Shown here: in pieces, positions 6,786-14,387 of the stretch
Layout: every line of letters starts with the position of its first letter
Numbering within the stretch: the first letter of the stretch is position 1
Assembly (NCBI GenBank): GCA_003246895.1
Contig: QKCL01000057.1
Location: forward strand, 1-47,837
Source of the DNA: Spirochaetota bacterium
GTDB taxonomy: Bacteria; Spirochaetota; UBA4802; UBA5550
Reading direction: 5' to 3'
DNA length: 47,837 nt
Notes under the pieces: model-generated
What the model was told of the DNA's origin: nothing
Database searches by the model: none
Seen by the model: only the letters and a program-made list of their open reading frames with translations
Program-made: the position numbers and the translations under genes

Positions 6786-7556
6786 ATGAAAAATTCAGGA
6801 TTAAAGACATTTATCTTTTTCATCTCACTTATTCTGGCTCTAGCTCTCTCAACGAAGTCATATTCACAGGATAATGATGAAACAGATTTTACACCAAAAA
6901 CCCAGTTTATCATTTTCTATGACCTTGGGTATTCAGGAGATAAGGGTATAGAAGACTATACAAGAAAGGGTGCCGGAGATATATCAGACGCCTACAACAG
7001 CTATGGATCACCGTACAGCAGTGATTACCATGCCGGTTCAACTGAAGACTCAAAAATAAGCCAGGGTGTGGGCCTGGAATTCAGAACATTCTTCGGAAAT
7101 ATAGGATATGGAATTGGTCTTGGGATTCACTCAAAAAGTACAAGTACTACAGTTGAATCATCGGATAATGAACCCATTGAAGTCAGGGCAAAACTGTTTA
7201 TAATAGACCTTGCCCCTTCCATTTTTTACAGATTCTTTTTAAGCGACAATGTATTCATAAGTACAGGACTTGGAATTGACATATTTTACGGTATTGCCGA
7301 CATTTCTGACTCCGGAGTATCAATCCCATACTCAACTGAAGAGAGCTATTTCGTTACAGCTCAGTCCAGCGGATTAGGATGCCATATAAAAACAGATATT
7401 ACATTTCTTTATAAATCGATAGGCATCACCATGGGAGTGGGTGCACGTTATATTGAGAGTGATGAATTCTATGAAAGTTTCAGCACTACAAAACTTGATC
7501 TTAAAGCCGGAATAACAGGTGTACACAGCTACATCGGAATAACATCTTATATTTAG
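6786..7556 (+). CDS. Outer-membrane beta-barrel-like protein
   Basis: 256 residues. A signal peptide (1-27, ending KSYSQ-D) precedes a run of short amphipathic strands rich in Gly, Tyr, Ser and aromatic residues, such as GYGIGLGIHSK, VFISTGLGIDIFYG and GITMGVGARYIE, ending in a hydrophobic strand. This looks like a small OmpX/OmpA-type barrel of about 8-10 strands, but no specific family is recognised. The next gene, a lipoprotein, starts 14 nt later, so the two probably form one transcript. There is no Shine-Dalgarno; a TATGAT hexamer (6774-6779) ends 6 nt before the ATG. Confidence 0.7.
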   Translation: MKNSGLKTFIFFISLILALALSTKSYSQDNDETDFTPKTQFIIFYDLGYSGDKGIEDYTRKGAGDISDAYNSYGSPYSSDYHAGSTEDSKISQGVGLEFRTFFGNIGYGIGLGIHSKSTSTTVESSDNEPIEVRAKLFIIDLAPSIFYRFFLSDNVFISTGLGIDIFYGIADISDSGVSIPYSTEESYFVTAQSSGLGCHIKTDITFLYKSIGITMGVGARYIESDEFYESFSTTKLDLKAGITGVHSYIGITSYI

Positions 7557-7570
7557 AGACAATTTAAACA

Positions 7571-8296
7571 ATGAAAATATTAAATTTTTTACTCCCGTCA
7601 TTAATCCTTATTACGATATCAGCACTGACCGGATGCGTAAGCAACTTCACACTTCAAACAGCAAAAGCCATACCTGAAGGACAGCTTGACATCGGAATGA
7701 TAATGGCCACAACGACAAACCGTGCAGCATATGACATGCAGAATGAACATGATGAAAACAGTCACAGTCCCTTTATACCCTTTACTGAAATTCCTGAGAA
7801 CACCCTGCCGTCAGGAAGACTGGGACTTGGACACAAAATCGATGCTGCACTGATACTCAACCCGTACCCGTTTCAGAATCTGCCTATTGAAATTGGAGGC
7901 GATATTAAATACCAGTTTTTCAATGCCGGAAATTTTTATTCAGCTTCAGGGTTGGGATTCTTCTATATGAATAACTACAAGGATATCGTAGATGACAATC
8001 AGCACGGTGAATTATTCCTTCCGGTATATGTCAGTTATAATCTCTTTGACAAATTCAATGTATATGGTGCTGTAAAAGGTGTATACAGATTCAGAAGAAA
8101 TGAGGTCTTCGAAGACGGCAGCTGGAAAAAGAAAAACCGGTACACTCAGCTGGTAAACTATACAGTGGGGTACATGAGAAAAACAGACAGCGGCAACACC
8201 GTATTTATCGAAACAGCCTACCAGTATGAATTCCAGACAAAATTTTCATCATACCAGGTAAACTATGGAATTTTTACAAGTCTTAACCTGTGGTAA
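7571..8296 (+). CDS. Lipoprotein with beta-rich outer-membrane-like body
   Basis: 241 residues with the lipobox ALTGC (acylated Cys22). The body has repeated amphipathic strands (GRLGLGHKIDAALIL, FYSASGLGFFYM, FNVYGAVKGVYRF), like small transporter or porin-type barrels, and ends in an aromatic-rich strand (IFTSLNLW). Function is not recognised. It follows another barrel-like gene by 14 nt, suggesting a two-gene envelope unit. A weak ribosome site precedes the ATG. Confidence 0.7.
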   Translation: MKILNFLLPSLILITISALTGCVSNFTLQTAKAIPEGQLDIGMIMATTTNRAAYDMQNEHDENSHSPFIPFTEIPENTLPSGRLGLGHKIDAALILNPYPFQNLPIEIGGDIKYQFFNAGNFYSASGLGFFYMNNYKDIVDDNQHGELFLPVYVSYNLFDKFNVYGAVKGVYRFRRNEVFEDGSWKKKNRYTQLVNYTVGYMRKTDSGNTVFIETAYQYEFQTKFSSYQVNYGIFTSLNLW

Positions 8297-8332: not shown

Positions 8333-9634
8333 CTAAAAATACAGTTTCACAAATGAATATACCATGGGTGCGGATTCATATGTTTCAAAATCGGAAACCC
8401 TTTCCCTGCTTCCGGTCTTTGCTCCCATTACCCCAAGCGACACCTCTGCATTGTCGGAAACGCTGTATTTAAAGGAAGCGCTGGCAAAGAGTCCTCTGCC
8501 TTCAAAATCATAGATCAGAAAAATATCGGCCCTGAGAATAGAGATTATATCATATCCTGCGTTTAATGAAAGATAATACCTGTTGTATGTGAGGATGCGG
8601 TTTGAGAGAGTATAAAAGCTGCTTCCATTATACCCATCTGACATGAATGACGAAACAGCGTCCCTGAGGTCTTTATCTTCATTAATACAGACCTCATTAT
8701 AGAAGAATTCAGAAAGGAGATACAAACCCTTTGAAAATGTATACTCATAGCCTGTGCCTGCCTGCCAGAAACCCTTTTCCGATTCATCGGGCTTTGAATA
8801 GAGAGCTACTGCCGTGAGCTGGCCGCCGAAAAGAACAAATACGAAATCTGCCCCGGCCACCCTCCGCTTTGAAACATAACCTGCCAGAAGCGCCGCATCT
8901 GCAGATTCGCTGAGAAACTTTATCCTGACAGCGTAGTTGCTGCTCTTCATATCCGTATCTCTGATTTCATCGTTTTCCCTGAGGGGATTATATACTGCCG
9001 ATACCTCCAGGAGATTCTCCATGAACAGGTCCGCCCTGAATGCATCAATACCCTCCTGGTCTTCAGCTCCTTCAACAGATGTAGGAGAAACCGGATTAAG
9101 AAGGTCAAGGGGATTCCAGAGCCTGCTGCTTCCAAAACGCACCTGCTGCCTCCCTGCAGTGAACGTAAAAGCTCCTGCCGAGAACTTTCCGTAGGCCCTG
9201 TGAAATCCGGAACTGTAATACATGGGCGGGTCTGTTCTGTCCACTCCGCTTTTCCAGATTCTGTTGTAATCTCCCGCCTGCCACTCACTTTCAAATTCTC
9301 TGGAATCTGTATAGTTAGACCAGACCGCTTCGCTGTCGTAGTCCATATGGAATACAAAACTGCTGCCGTATGTGACCTCGGGAGAAAGCCGCAGCCGGTT
9401 AAGGTCAAGAAACATGTTTTTATCAGTTGAGGCTTCACTTCCCGTACCGTAATAGTCGCTGTTTCTCCGGTACATGAACATGTTCTTGTAGTGCCCCTTG
9501 AACGAAAAATTCCATCCTGAACTCTCAAAGGGGTCTTCCGCTTCACCTGAAAAGGCCGGACCGCTGTAAAAAAAAACAAAAAGCAGAACTGTGCAGAATA
9601 TTCTTTCCCATGAAAAGATAATACCAATGATCAT
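8333..9634 (-). CDS. Outer-membrane beta-barrel protein, last gene of an ABC export operon
   Basis: 433 residues. A signal peptide ends near GPAFSGEA. The rest alternates polar and aromatic residues in porin-like strands and ends with a C-terminal strand terminating in Phe (VYSFVKLYF), typical of proteins inserted by the BAM machinery. The protein resembles alginate-export or DUF1302-type barrels in style (FTAGRQQVRFGSSRLWNPLD), but I cannot fix the family. It overlaps the ATPase gene by 4 nt (ATGA), so it belongs to the TetR - LolA-like - permease - permease - ATPase operon. Its likely role is the outer-membrane exit or acceptor of that transport route (inference). Confidence 0.78.
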   Translation of the reverse strand: MIIGIIFSWERIFCTVLLFVFFYSGPAFSGEAEDPFESSGWNFSFKGHYKNMFMYRRNSDYYGTGSEASTDKNMFLDLNRLRLSPEVTYGSSFVFHMDYDSEAVWSNYTDSREFESEWQAGDYNRIWKSGVDRTDPPMYYSSGFHRAYGKFSAGAFTFTAGRQQVRFGSSRLWNPLDLLNPVSPTSVEGAEDQEGIDAFRADLFMENLLEVSAVYNPLRENDEIRDTDMKSSNYAVRIKFLSESADAALLAGYVSKRRVAGADFVFVLFGGQLTAVALYSKPDESEKGFWQAGTGYEYTFSKGLYLLSEFFYNEVCINEDKDLRDAVSSFMSDGYNGSSFYTLSNRILTYNRYYLSLNAGYDIISILRADIFLIYDFEGRGLFASASFKYSVSDNAEVSLGVMGAKTGSRERVSDFETYESAPMVYSFVKLYF

Positions 9635-10302
9635 AGAGTGATTCTACCGTCTGTGATCCTGATGAGCCTTTCTGCCCTGTCCATGACCATGGGGTCGTGA
9701 GTTGAAAAGAGAAAGGTTGTTCCCCTCTCATGGTTCAGGTTCTTCATGAGATCGAGGAGTGATGAACCTGTCTTCTGGTCAAGGTTTGCAGTGGGTTCAT
9801 CGGCCAGTACAATTTCAGGGCCCGAAACAATGGCCCTTGCCACCGCCACACGCTGCTGCTGGCCGCCCGAAAGCTGTGCCGGCCTGCGGTGTGACTCCTT
9901 CTCAAGACCAACATCCCTAAGCATTGCAAGGGCCTTCTCCCTCCGCTCATGTTTCTCAACACCCTGAAGAAGCATGACATACTCTACGTTCTCGACTGCC
10001 GAAAGAACAGGTATGAGATTATAGGCCTGGAATATGAACCCGATCCTGTTCAGCCTGATCTTTGAAAGTTCACTTTCACTCAGGCCCTTCATGGTCTGTC
10101 CGGAAATAATTACATCTCCTTCATCCGGCCTGTCAATACCGCCCATGACATTGAGAAGTGTAGTCTTTCCCGAACCTGAAGGCCCTGCAATGGCCGAGAA
10201 CTCTCCGCTTTCAATGTCAAGGTCGATTCCCCTCAGGGCATGAACCTCCTGTCCGTTTGACTGGTATGTTTTATGAAGGTTTTTTATTTCAATTACTTTC
10301 AT
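9631..10302 (-). CDS. ABC transporter ATPase, LolD/MacB type
   Basis: 223 residues from the chosen start. Walker A is GPSGSGKTT, the signature is LSGGQQQRVAVARA, Walker B is IVLADEPTANLD, and the switch histidine is in FSTHDP. Length and motifs fit the LolD/MacB/FtsE group, which powers mechanotransmission permeases rather than channel-type transporters. The start used is the ATG at 10302, with AAGGAG 5 nt upstream; a frame six codons longer is less likely. The two permeases it should energise lie directly upstream, and the barrel gene overlaps its stop. A short CCCC-ttac-GGGG hairpin lies in the 47-nt gap before it and could tune ATPase expression. Confidence 0.93.
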   Translation of the reverse strand: MKVIEIKNLHKTYQSNGQEVHALRGIDLDIESGEFSAIAGPSGSGKTTLLNVMGGIDRPDEGDVIISGQTMKGLSESELSKIRLNRIGFIFQAYNLIPVLSAVENVEYVMLLQGVEKHERREKALAMLRDVGLEKESHRRPAQLSGGQQQRVAVARAIVSGPEIVLADEPTANLDQKTGSSLLDLMKNLNHERGTTFLFSTHDPMVMDRAERLIRITDGRITL

Positions 10303-10349
10303 TCTTACTCCTTTTCCCATAGTTCCCCTTACGGGGGGATTATGGGTTT

Positions 10350-11582
10350 CTAAATAAAATGAAGGGCCTTAAGGGGCCTGATTCTCGCAGCCTTCACTGC
10401 CGGATAAAGGGCTGCAATGACTGCAGTACATGACACAATCACCATGGATGCAAAAAAATCCTTCACAGTTACTACAGGATAAATAACAGTTCCCGAGCCC
10501 AGGATTGACATTGTCTCGGAAAAAAAAGACAGGTCAAGTCCCGTGACCGTGAGAACACCCAGAACAAGCCCGCCGGCGATCATGCCTGCAGCCATCCCCA
10601 GAAGTCCAAGATTAAGGGACTCAATAAGTATCATGATAAAAATATTCAGCGGCTTCGTGCCCAGGCATTTCATTACACCGATTTCATGGAAGCGCTCCAT
10701 TATGGCCATGACCATGGTGTTGGCCACTGAAAATACAATTGTCGTAAACACTATCGCAAAAAAAACATACATCATTGAATCATATAGCCTGATTGCGCTG
10801 ACAATGGACGGGGCCATCTCCTGCCATGTTTTCACCACGACATCAGTGCTTTTCAGCCACGGCTCCACTCTTTTTTTTATTCTGTAGGAGAGGTCCCGGT
10901 TTTCTGCCTTGATCGTAATCTCGGATATACGGCTTCCGATGCCCGTTATTCTCTGAAGATTTTTCAGTCCCGTGAACACCACGTGCTTGTCAAAATCCCC
11001 CACCGGCGATGAGAAGATCCCCTTCACAGTAAGAGCTTCGCCTGTCATCTCTCCATGAACATCCTGCAGTATCAGAACAAGCCTGTCTCCAACCACAAGG
11101 TCAAGTTTCTCCGCTGTTCTCTTTGATATCAGAATATCTCTGGCCTCTGAGCTTTTCAGGAAGTCACTGCCGTTTTCTTTCGAAGTGTATTCATAAATTC
11201 CGGAAACGGTTCTCTCCCTTTCCGGGTCTATTCCCGCAATCATGACTCCCCTTGAACTTTCACTTGACCTTATCATGGCCTGCACCTTGACCCGCGGAGC
11301 CCATGAGAACCCCTTTGAGGATTTCATTCTTTCCATGAAATCCTCATCCGGTACAAAACTGTATGAGGGTTTGATATTGTCCAGGAAGCCCTTTCTGTGA
11401 ACAGAGACATGTCCCAGTGATGTGCTGATTGTATTGTCCACCATCTGATAATTCATGCCCTTTGATATCCCCATCATGAAAAACATCATGAGTATGCCAA
11501 GGCCTATTGAAGTAATAACAACCAGAGACCTTCTCCTGTTACGCCAGACATTTCTCCAGCTAAGCAAAAATATCATCTTCAT
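10350..11582 (-). CDS. FtsX/MacB-family ABC permease (LolE-like), copy 2
   Basis: 410 residues with the family architecture: one N-terminal transmembrane helix (about 20-40), a periplasmic MacB-PCD-like domain to about 265, then three C-terminal helices (near 272-292, 320-345 and 370-395) of the FtsX domain. The conserved N-terminal RNVWRNRRRSLVV and the cytoplasmic loop EIGVMKCLGTKPLNIF are typical. It is paralogous to the gene just upstream (12-nt gap), so the transporter is probably a heterodimer like LolCE. LolCE and MacB pull lipoproteins or small molecules from the periplasmic face of the inner membrane; the substrate here is not known. Confidence 0.9.
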   Translation of the reverse strand: MKMIFLLSWRNVWRNRRRSLVVITSIGLGILMMFFMMGISKGMNYQMVDNTISTSLGHVSVHRKGFLDNIKPSYSFVPDEDFMERMKSSKGFSWAPRVKVQAMIRSSESSRGVMIAGIDPERERTVSGIYEYTSKENGSDFLKSSEARDILISKRTAEKLDLVVGDRLVLILQDVHGEMTGEALTVKGIFSSPVGDFDKHVVFTGLKNLQRITGIGSRISEITIKAENRDLSYRIKKRVEPWLKSTDVVVKTWQEMAPSIVSAIRLYDSMMYVFFAIVFTTIVFSVANTMVMAIMERFHEIGVMKCLGTKPLNIFIMILIESLNLGLLGMAAGMIAGGLVLGVLTVTGLDLSFFSETMSILGSGTVIYPVVTVKDFFASMVIVSCTAVIAALYPAVKAARIRPLKALHFI

Positions 11583-11594
11583 TAAATCAGCCTC

Positions 11595-12833
11595 CTAGAG
11601 TTCCCGCATGGACGTTACAGGGTCAAGACGCGATGCCCGCCTGGCCGGAAAGTAACTGAATACCCCGGCCAGCAAAAATACAATTACCGAAGCCCTTATG
11701 AAATCTGAAATTTTTATCTTTGCATAGTACACAAGTGTCGATACCTGATACATCTCCATCTCGCTCTCATATTCCGAAAAATCCATTGGGTAGACTGTGA
11801 AATACCAGCTCAGTCCATAGCCTAGAATCATCCCCAGGGCTATGCCCATTGCAGAGACAAAAAAGGACTCAGTCAGTATCATTCTGAAGATGCGTTCAGG
11901 GCCTGTACCGATTGAAAGCATGATACCGAACTCACGCGTCCTTTCATAGACAGACATCTGTATTGTATTTAAAATTCCAAAGGCCACAATTAGATAGAGT
12001 ATCATTACAAATATGTGTCCGCTGGCCCTGTCAAGGGCAATGAACTGCAGAATTTCCGGGTTGAGCCTGTCCCATGACATTACCTCGAATGTGTCATCCG
12101 TTACAGACCTTATACGTGCGGCGAGCCCCGCCACACTGTCTATGTCACTGGCCCTTATGGCATATGCAGTGACATGGCCCATCATTGAAAAAACTTCCCT
12201 TGCGGCATCCAGTGAAATTATTCCAAGGGTTCTGTTGTACTGAACATTTGGAGACTTGAAGATTCCCCTTACCATGAAATTTTTTGCTGCAATGGAACCG
12301 TCGAATCCCTGGGAAACAAGAGAGACCTCATCACCCACACCCGCGTCAAGAACCCTGGCAAGGGCCCTGCCCAGTACTATTCCGTTTTTATCAGAAGGAG
12401 AAATAAACTTTCCGCCGGGAAGGACATATCTGTCCATGGTGATGATATCCCTCTCCCTTTCCGGATCAATTCCAAGTATTTCACACCCCGCAGAGGAATC
12501 CCTGTGTGTAAGGAGGCCACCTGTTGAGATTCTCTTTGAAATTCCCTTAACGTTTTTCATGGAGGATATTTTATTGAAGAGTTCGTTATCGTCCATGAAC
12601 GCATACTCAAGGGTCATGTTCTCCCAGAATCCCTTCTCGTGGACCTGAATATGGCCTGTTCTGGGCGCAACACTGTCCTCAATCATCTGGGCATAACCGC
12701 CATTCTGGAGTGAACGCATGAACAGTATGAGTGCCGTGCCCGCCGCAATAGTCATGAATGTGAGAAATGACCTGCGCTTGTTTCTCCAGACATTTCTCCA
12801 TGCCAGCATCACTGTCATTTTATAGCCGGACAT
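11595..12833 (-). CDS. FtsX/MacB-family ABC permease (LolC-like), copy 1
   Basis: 412 residues. The N-terminal helix follows the motif AWRNVWRNKRRSFLTF. A large periplasmic domain then leads to three C-terminal helices with the conserved loop REFGIMLSIGTGPERIF. It shares the same motif order and length with the next gene, so the two are paralogues from an old duplication. It begins 1 nt after the stop of the LolA-like gene, implying translational coupling between carrier and permease. Its ATPase partner lies two genes downstream. Confidence 0.9.
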   Translation of the reverse strand: MSGYKMTVMLAWRNVWRNKRRSFLTFMTIAAGTALILFMRSLQNGGYAQMIEDSVAPRTGHIQVHEKGFWENMTLEYAFMDDNELFNKISSMKNVKGISKRISTGGLLTHRDSSAGCEILGIDPERERDIITMDRYVLPGGKFISPSDKNGIVLGRALARVLDAGVGDEVSLVSQGFDGSIAAKNFMVRGIFKSPNVQYNRTLGIISLDAAREVFSMMGHVTAYAIRASDIDSVAGLAARIRSVTDDTFEVMSWDRLNPEILQFIALDRASGHIFVMILYLIVAFGILNTIQMSVYERTREFGIMLSIGTGPERIFRMILTESFFVSAMGIALGMILGYGLSWYFTVYPMDFSEYESEMEMYQVSTLVYYAKIKISDFIRASVIVFLLAGVFSYFPARRASRLDPVTSMREL

Positions 12834-13580
12834 CTATCTCCCCTTGAGATTCTGTATTGTAAAAACCCTATCCGGAATGGCGACGTTAAAACGGATAAAC
12901 TTTATCCTCAGCATGGTGTACCTGTCCTTCTTTGAAAGTGTCTCCATTTTGTAGACTGCCGGTATTACCCTGCCGCCCATTTCAGTGAATTCCGACATTG
13001 TCATGGTCTTTTTCAGGACATTGTGCTGGTTGTAGAATTCCTCTTTCACCGGAAGATAATCATGCTTCCTTGCATAGTATACTATTTTACCCCATACCAC
13101 TGCTGATTCCGGTTTAGGCACAAGAGTAATCCTGTAGCAGTCGTGTCCCGCAATATTTTCAGACCCGGAAAGTGTATGGGTGTAGTCCTTTGTAATACTC
13201 GATTCCTTTACAATGTCATCATTGGTAAAATCAGAACCCATCCATGACTGAAGCATCATGGAAGGAGATATCTTTATGGCCTTCTGCAGTCCCGGAATGA
13301 AATGCCTCATCTCATGACCTATAAGAAGAAACCTGTTGCCAGCGTCTTTCTTGGGAGATGTAATTACGGAGAAACTCTTTCTCCCGTCCCTGACGTTCCA
13401 GCTCTTCATCTCCATTGTACGGGTCCATTTTCTTGTCTTGATTGTTACCTCATATACTGCAGTCTGTGTATTCCCCCTGACAGCATCCTCAGATTTTTTT
13501 ATAATTTCCCCTGCAGTCATTGAGAAAAGCGGATGGGCAATGATCATTGTTATAATTACTGAAAATATTCTAAAGGTCAT
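12834..13580 (-). CDS. Periplasmic LolA-like outer-membrane lipoprotein-sorting protein
   Basis: 248 residues. A signal peptide (about 1-20) is followed by a LolA/LolB-type beta sheet. Features of this family (often annotated outer membrane lipoprotein-sorting protein) are visible: early EIIKKSEDAVRG, then basic-aromatic strands (TIKTRKWTRTMEMKSW), SFSVITSPKKDAGNRFL and QSWMGSDFTNDDIV. Relatives often sit beside RND/MMPL or ABC exporters of hydrophobic molecules. Here it is coupled on both sides: its ATG overlaps the TetR stop by 4 nt, and its stop is 1 nt from the first permease. Inferred role: periplasmic shuttle taking a lipid-like cargo from the permeases to the barrel. Confidence 0.87.
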   Translation of the reverse strand: MTFRIFSVIITMIIAHPLFSMTAGEIIKKSEDAVRGNTQTAVYEVTIKTRKWTRTMEMKSWNVRDGRKSFSVITSPKKDAGNRFLLIGHEMRHFIPGLQKAIKISPSMMLQSWMGSDFTNDDIVKESSITKDYTHTLSGSENIAGHDCYRITLVPKPESAVVWGKIVYYARKHDYLPVKEEFYNQHNVLKKTMTMSEFTEMGGRVIPAVYKMETLSKKDRYTMLRIKFIRFNVAIPDRVFTIQNLKGR

Positions 13581-14215
13581 TCCTGATCCCCCTGTACTTT
13601 TTCTGCTGATATACTCTGAAAAAACATCTCAAGAAAACTCTCAATTCCCTTCATCATATCTATCCTTGAAGGGTTCAGGGCGCAGTGAAGCCCCACTCCG
13701 TCCAGGGACGCAACAAGGAGCATTGACTTTTCAGAAATGTCCAGGTCACTGCGGAAAACTCCTTCATTAACCCCCCTGCGGATAATTCTTTCAAACATGC
13801 CCTTCATGGAATCCACAATACGGTTGAAAATTTCACCAAGTTCAGGAACCTTCCCCTTCAGTATCAGTGAAAAAACTTCGGTGAATATTATGGTCATTTT
13901 CTTAAGTGACATGAGGTCATTATCAAAGAACCTGCATATTTCATCAATTGCAGACCTTATAAGGTCCCTTTCATCTGAAAGAAGCTCCTCAAGTGCCTGA
14001 ACCCTCTGCTCGGTCTGGAGCCAGAGAAAATTCATGACATAGAGAAGAATCTCCTCCTTTGAATCAAAATACTGGTAAACCAGCCCCTTTGAAATTCCCA
14101 CTGCTGATGCGATATCGATTATGCGTGAATTTTCAAAACCCTTTTCCATGAAGACTTCCAGTGCCCCGAAGGCAATCTGGTTCTGCTTCTCTTCCCTGTT
14201 AATTATCTTCGGCAT
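13577..14215 (-). CDS. TetR-family repressor of the LolA-like/ABC export operon
   Basis: 212 residues from the chosen start. An N-terminal TetR helix-turn-helix is seen at about 25-45 (IIDIASAVGISKGLVYQYFDSKEEIL is in two pieces: IASAVGISKGLVYQYF and DSKEEIL). The C-terminal half is a ligand-binding helical domain. The longer frame starting at 14335 would run through the promoter, so ATG 14215 is preferred: it begins MPKIINREEKQ, a normal TetR start. There is no Shine-Dalgarno; the -10 TATATT ends 6 nt before the ATG, predicting a leaderless mRNA. First gene of the operon, with a perfect operator in its own promoter, so it is almost certainly autoregulated. Confidence 0.92.
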   Translation of the reverse strand: MPKIINREEKQNQIAFGALEVFMEKGFENSRIIDIASAVGISKGLVYQYFDSKEEILLYVMNFLWLQTEQRVQALEELLSDERDLIRSAIDEICRFFDNDLMSLKKMTIIFTEVFSLILKGKVPELGEIFNRIVDSMKGMFERIIRRGVNEGVFRSDLDISEKSMLLVASLDGVGLHCALNPSRIDMMKGIESFLEMFFQSISAEKVQGDQE

Positions 14216-14221
14216 AAAACA

Positions 14222-14254
14222 AATATACCTTTTATTGACCCATTGGTCAATAAA
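14222..14254 (-). promoter_or_regulatory. Autoregulated promoter with TetR operator (minus strand)
   Basis: On the minus strand: -35 TTGACC (14250-14245), 17-bp spacer, -10 TATATT (14227-14222), then 6 nt to the ATG at 14215. A perfect inverted repeat TTTATTGACC-4 nt-GGTCAATAAA occupies 14231-14254, covering the -35 and most of the spacer. This is a classical position for repressor binding. Confidence 0.82.
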
Positions 14255-14387
14255 AAAATAATGTAACCAGAATTTCATACAGTTTACAGAATTTAATGTA
14301 TTAAAAAAGAGGGTATTTTTTATAAATACTTTCAAAAAGGGGTTGTAAGCATATCAGGCTTGGCCAACAATCCCTCAGGATTAAAAA

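Follow-up and report, generated by a model that had tools for sequence, protein, structure and literature searches.

A Lol-like ABC operon with a LolA3-type carrier and an outer-membrane barrel: a probable accessory export line in Spirochaetota

Described relatives and layout of the locus

The closest published counterpart of the operon described here is the BBJ23-29 cluster of Borrelia, an export system predicted in 2026 and proposed from models only (PMC13078400). The present module is a variant of the same kind of assembly, in which a Lol-like ABC transporter is combined with a carrier and a barrel. In our literature search, which most subscription journals lay outside, the Borrelia paper was the only one found to describe an operon of this composition. 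Both are spirochaetal operons with a LolD-like ATPase, a LolC/E-like permease, a LolA-like carrier, and an outer-membrane barrel. By its published description, however, the Borrelia system has a single homodimeric permease where the module has two; its barrel is of the Omp85 type without POTRA, whereas the barrel of the module is modeled as OprD/AlgE-type; and it includes two TPR proteins, whereas our operon has no TPR gene and does have a TetR gene.

Canonical Lol machinery (LolCDE or LolF-LolD, with LolA and LolB) shares with the module a type VII motor of LolC/E and LolD kind and a carrier of the LolA fold. It differs in that the module appears to lack the LolC hook, has a carrier of family PF17131 (LolA3-type) rather than PF03548, and has an outer-membrane barrel and no LolB in its operon. 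MacAB-TolC is similar in its type VII permeases, with MacB_PCD and FtsX domains, but in MacB a single chain combines ATPase and permease, and its partners are MacA and TolC. In the module these functions are on separate ORFs and the operon has no MacA or TolC family, so that identity with MacAB-TolC is ruled out by composition.

In logic, the closest systems that have been studied by experiment are AmeABCD and an aryl-polyene cluster. AmeABCD of Castellaniella consists of an RND pump, a DUF1302 barrel, and a LolA-superfamily protein, and its deletion lowers monoterpene tolerance (PMC6394551); the aryl-polyene cluster combines an RND pump with two further proteins, one LolA-like and the other LolB-like (PMC8253772). 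AmeABCD and other operons of RND pump, LolA-like protein, and barrel resemble the module in their LolA-superfamily carrier, their outer-membrane barrel and, presumably, their hydrophobic cargo. The AmeABCD motor is an HAE3 RND pump, whereas that of the module is an ABC transporter, and in the carrier tree the RND-served proteins group on a separate branch.

The window, the 47,837-nt stretch of DNA analyzed here, is contig 12 of a 3.57-Mb draft assembly from an uncultured Spirochaetota lineage. Six genes run in tandem on its minus strand from 14215 to 8333 (Table 1), as an earlier sequence-only reading of the window had described, and the 4-nt overlaps and very short gaps that it reported are likewise present. 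The tetR and carrier genes overlap by 4 nt, the carrier and permease 1 genes abut (0 nt between), the two permease genes are 12 nt apart, permease 2 and the ATPase are separated by 29 or 47 nt, according to which start codon is used, and the ATPase and barrel genes again overlap by 4 nt. The operon contains no biosynthetic gene hinting at the cargo. Two small outer-membrane-like proteins encoded on the plus strand (6786-7556 and 7571-8296) converge on the barrel gene; neither has a Pfam match, and no counterparts were seen beside the module in relatives.

Table 1. Features of the operon, with positions in the window
Feature	Position	Strand	Remarks
TetR-family repressor (predicted)	13577..14215	-	ATG start at 14215; TetR_N, 4.7e-13
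LolA_like periplasmic carrier, PF17131, LolA3-type	12834..13580	-	5.6e-52, 176.5 bits (Pfam cut-off 30)
Permease 1, LolC/E-like type VII ABC	11595..12833	-	MacB_PCD + FtsX
Permease 2, LolC/E-like type VII ABC	10350..11582	-	MacB_PCD + FtsX
LolD-type ATPase	9631..10302	-	ABC_tran, 1.9e-33; alternative ATG at 10320
Outer-membrane beta-barrel, 18 strands, OprD/AlgE-class fold	8333..9634	-	AlphaFold model; without Pfam family
Operator-like 26-bp inverted repeat	14230..14255	.	Putative function

A conserved core apart from housekeeping Lol

The conserved core of the system is the series carrier, permease 1, permease 2, ATPase, and barrel. Of 58 other genomes, 22 have a carrier ortholog (50-66% identity), in one case as a fragment, and the distribution is patchy: The module is absent from some genomes of families whose other members carry it. 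The nearest named carriers of the module include HGW-Spirochaetae-5 and UBA5550 records. All 19 relatives with contigs that span the block keep the core gene order, while the flanking genes differ, and the same order occurs in Desulfobacterales, found when whole genomes were scanned at the DNA level with the barrel alignment; two loci there (L078 and L081) are complete.

Barrel pairwise distances across 16 genomes track those of the carrier (r = 0.88) and of permease 1 (r = 0.80), correlations to which shared ancestry contributes. In one genus (g18; loci L058, L059, and L061), opposite-strand genes lie between ATPase and barrel, the barrel remaining on the same strand and within about 2.5 kb of the ATPase. 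Second copies of the permease pair are present in some relatives (L055/L090 and, in G002, L053/L063), in G017 directly upstream of a module, and G002 has a second complete module.

A separate Lol set is present in the window genome: Contig 87 has LolF with LolD after it, and contigs 27 and 4 have PF03548 LolA-family matches. LolF is likewise found elsewhere in all 21 module-bearing relatives tested; each has one strong LolF-type match of 261-317 bits, compared with about 113-171 bits for the module permeases. No LolB is detectable in the window genome, and among the controls only Escherichia coli has one. Because LolF lies elsewhere in 21 out of 21 relatives, and LolF, LolD, and LolA elsewhere in the window genome, the module is not the housekeeping Lol system, an identity that we therefore reject. 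The sequence-only reading had proposed a dedicated export route apart from housekeeping Lol and had named a second, canonical Lol set and conserved gene order as what would support it. Both are found, and together they support such a route. On balance, we lean toward the view that the genes from 13580 to 8333 form one accessory trans-envelope exporter, Lol-like in its working, outside the Lol pathway, and in this genome under TetR control.

Motor, carrier, and barrel

Both permeases combine a MacB_PCD periplasmic core with FtsX and are accompanied by an ABC ATPase, the features that define type VII ABC exporters by sequence. They had been described as MacB/LolE-type; NCBIfam and PDB searches place both far closer to LolF, LolE, and LolC than to MacB. 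The two are about 30% identical to each other. Their TIGR02212 scores (137.8 and 132.6 bits) lie below the cut-off of 362, which the genome's own LolF also misses (308.8 bits). For the ATPase, LolD_lipo_ex is the best match of 195 (4.4e-71), at a score below its own cut-off.

The hook is a LolA-recruiting loop that LolC has and MacB lacks (PMC10094684). In a sequence alignment of the module permeases with E. coli LolC and LolE and with the genome's own LolF, the hook region comprises 10 residues in both module permeases, compared with 16 in the two proteins that have the hook, E. coli LolC and the LolF of this genome, and 15 in LolE; permease 1 has a near-invariant SQGFDGS where LolC has the hook. 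As judged by this alignment, both module permeases are without the LolC hook insert. Despite the shorter region, a LolA-like protein that carries lipoproteins could still dock at a different site.

The carrier has a signal peptide without a lipobox cysteine and has no PF03548 match at E <= 0.1. Its model (pLDDT 85.9) is closest among solved structures to LolA3 of Porphyromonas gingivalis (9tp6; Z 22.1, profile E 7.8e-29) and scores Z 21-22 against three other structures in the LolA3 sequence group, compared with Z of about 9-13 against LolA and LolB. According to published accounts (PMC13103446, PMC11885536), P. gingivalis LolA3 interacts weakly with LolB, and deletion of LolA3 in Flavobacterium johnsoniae had no observed phenotype.

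An ABC motor had been thought unusual for this carrier family. In a divergent Spirochaetota sample, the neighbors of PF17131 genes are an ABC pair in 14 cases, an RND pump in 19, and neither in 30 (about 17 ABC and 20 RND if partial neighborhoods are included), so that the ABC arrangement is not exceptional. In a maximum-likelihood tree of 36 carriers, a single branch parts ABC-served from RND-served proteins (ultrafast bootstrap 93, SH-aLRT 87). The motor changes once in 92% of bootstrap trees, compared with a shuffled mean of about 12 changes, and a larger quick tree of 63 rows gives the same single change when solitary genes are set aside. The split of the tree by motor therefore indicates that carriers are matched to their motors.

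Solitary PF17131 genes also occur. One, on contig 18 of the window genome (L067, 7325-8092), abuts an RsmE-like gene identified by eye; such genes have equivalents in many relatives, form their own well-supported clade, and have no motor gene nearby. At a further locus (L123, G033:C76:62500-70283), a single 1031-aa frame at 1789-4884 matches both an RND pump seed and the LolA_like profile. This apparent RND-carrier fusion suggests direct coupling of pump and carrier.

Sequence searches with the barrel (Pfam, PHROGs, and PDB) gave nothing useful, and DUF1302 (PF06980) has no match in 19 barrel orthologs; an RND-driven cousin (L073) pairs its PF17131 carrier with a barrel that has a weak DUF1302 match, just under the cut-off. 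The AlphaFold model has 18 long strands (pLDDT 86.7, pTM 0.81) and superposes on a BenF-like porin, OprD-family Occ channels, and AlgE at Z of about 22 (22.9 to 3jty, 316 residues, 3.5 Å; 22.2 to AlgE 4b61). OprD, AlgE, and Wzi stand at the top of the fold matches listed, among which there is no chain of Slam, LptD, FadL, BamA, TolC, or Omp85. The model thus places the barrel in the 18-strand OprD/Occ/AlgE fold class, a match of fold that does not by itself prove function. The best-conserved stretch, in a loop, reads GRQxxRxGSxxxWNPLDxxNPxSP. A motif of the G-x-G-NP-D/E type occurs in barrels near distant carriers at five of 14 ABC loci, five of 19 RND loci, and none of 30 solitary loci, which suggests a general carrier-plus-barrel unit that can be served by either motor.

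These features bear on the cargo. The sequence-only reading had allowed for lipoproteins, and the module could be a second, specialized lipoprotein-sorting system in which some of the lipoproteins, extracted by the LolC/E-like pair, would travel on the LolA-like protein to the barrel, there to be inserted or displayed at the surface. Lol families are the best matches for ATPase and permeases, Borrelia and similar spirochaetes are rich in surface lipoproteins, the authors of the BBJ23-29 model proposed such a role as possible (PMC13078400), and the window genome has no detected LolB. We nevertheless regard this as unlikely. The LolC hook is missing from both permeases, the carrier belongs with the LolA3 group (Z 22, compared with 9-12 to LolA/LolB), whose P. 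gingivalis member binds LolB only weakly and whose F. johnsoniae member gave no observed phenotype on deletion, the barrel best matches OprD, AlgE, and Wzi, with no Slam, LptD, or BamA among the matches listed, and most relatives are without the module. Given the lack of the hook, a carrier from the LolA3 group, and a barrel modeled as an 18-strand OprD/AlgE-type channel, lipoprotein cargo is doubtful; the missing hook and the barrel type argue instead for a different cargo or a different hand-over.

The best-known role of OprD-type barrels is the uptake of small polar molecules. This makes them a poor fit to a greasy cargo unless a lateral path exists, and the barrel could serve uptake and be merely co-regulated with the other genes. 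A retrograde route for the whole system, in which a compound would enter through the barrel, travel inward on the LolA-like carrier, and be placed in the inner membrane by the ABC pair, would accord with the uptake channels among the barrel's nearest fold neighbors, but known type VII ABC systems (MacB and LolCDE) act outward (PMC10094684), and we consider it very improbable.

Regulation and proposed function

The inverted repeat before tetR, TTTTATTGACCCATTGGTCAATAAAA, has perfect 11-bp arms and an imperfect center (TTTTATTGACC-CATT-GGTCAATAAAA) and ends 14 nt before the tetR start. Such a 26-bp repeat is expected 0.00 times in shuffles of the window, and it is the sole site of its pattern in the 3.57-Mb assembly; one further match at three mismatches is no better than a reversed-pattern control. 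A promoter-like TTGACC-N17-TATATT overlaps the repeat and reads into tetR, its -35-like TTGACC lying within or next to the repeat. We infer from this layout that TetR represses at the repeat: In the window genome, the local TetR would repress the whole unit through the palindrome and would probably be released by the cargo or a cargo precursor. The TetR regulon was rejected as a clue to the cargo, since no other site in the genome matches the operator pattern better than the control does, and no common operator was found upstream of the operons of relatives. The ligand also could not be named from NCBIfam, where the match of TetR to the fatty-acid regulator FadR is too weak (65.5 bits vs. a cut-off of 200).

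The sequence-only reading had taken TetR control to be part of the system. TetR is instead lineage-specific and outside the conserved core. In the closest syntenic relative (G016), the carrier adjoins HtpX as in the window, with no TetR between, and other relatives have a TetR at most 43% like that of the window, an HTH_34 protein with a membrane protein, Fur, or no regulator. At three loci (L047, L049, and L051), a membrane protein of ~210 aa and an HTH_34 winged-helix regulator stand upstream of the carrier in the place of TetR, and a distant locus of the ABC type (L070) has a comparable pair.

The regulator is central to another explanation, that a toxic hydrophobe entering the membrane is sensed by TetR and thereby switches on a pump for its own removal through the barrel. 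The TetR autoregulation layout with one dedicated operator-like site, the analogy with AmeABCD, whose loss lowers monoterpene tolerance, and the accessory distribution of the module are all in keeping with xenobiotic efflux. However, TetR is absent from G016 and replaced elsewhere by other regulators, even by Fur, and a toxin-sensing role is therefore not conserved. The operon also has no MacA-like adaptor or TolC. We judge efflux of this kind to be an improbable main function.

For the reading that we prefer, an accessory and locally regulated exporter, the most likely cargo is a non-lipoprotein amphiphile. A dimer of the LolD-type ATPase would drive a heterodimer of permease 1 and permease 2, which would hand the cargo to the LolA3-type carrier without a hook; the carrier would cross the periplasm with it, and the 18-strand OprD/AlgE-type barrel would act as outer-membrane acceptor or exit, where the cargo would be released. 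The direction of export, the hand-over from carrier to barrel, and the non-lipoprotein nature of the cargo are inferred. The five-gene line is separate from normal lipoprotein sorting and probably carries a greasy cargo to the cell surface.

More tentatively, the module may represent a distinct class of envelope-spanning exporter that is widespread in Spirochaetota and also occurs in Desulfobacterales. Its motor would be a Lol-type ABC transporter without the hook, its carrier a LolA3-type protein that has diversified together with this motor, and its barrel one of the OprD/AlgE type; by means of the soluble shuttle, the three would bring a non-lipoprotein lipid or a secondary metabolite to the surface. 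Orphan PF17131 proteins occur in many bacteria under the annotation "outer membrane lipoprotein-sorting protein." The module links one branch of this family to a particular motor of the ABC type and to a particular barrel in the outer membrane, apart from housekeeping Lol, and in the missing LolC hook it offers a concrete feature by which the lipoprotein reading can be tested. Should the cargo prove to be a lipid or pigment, a large protein family would need a new annotation.
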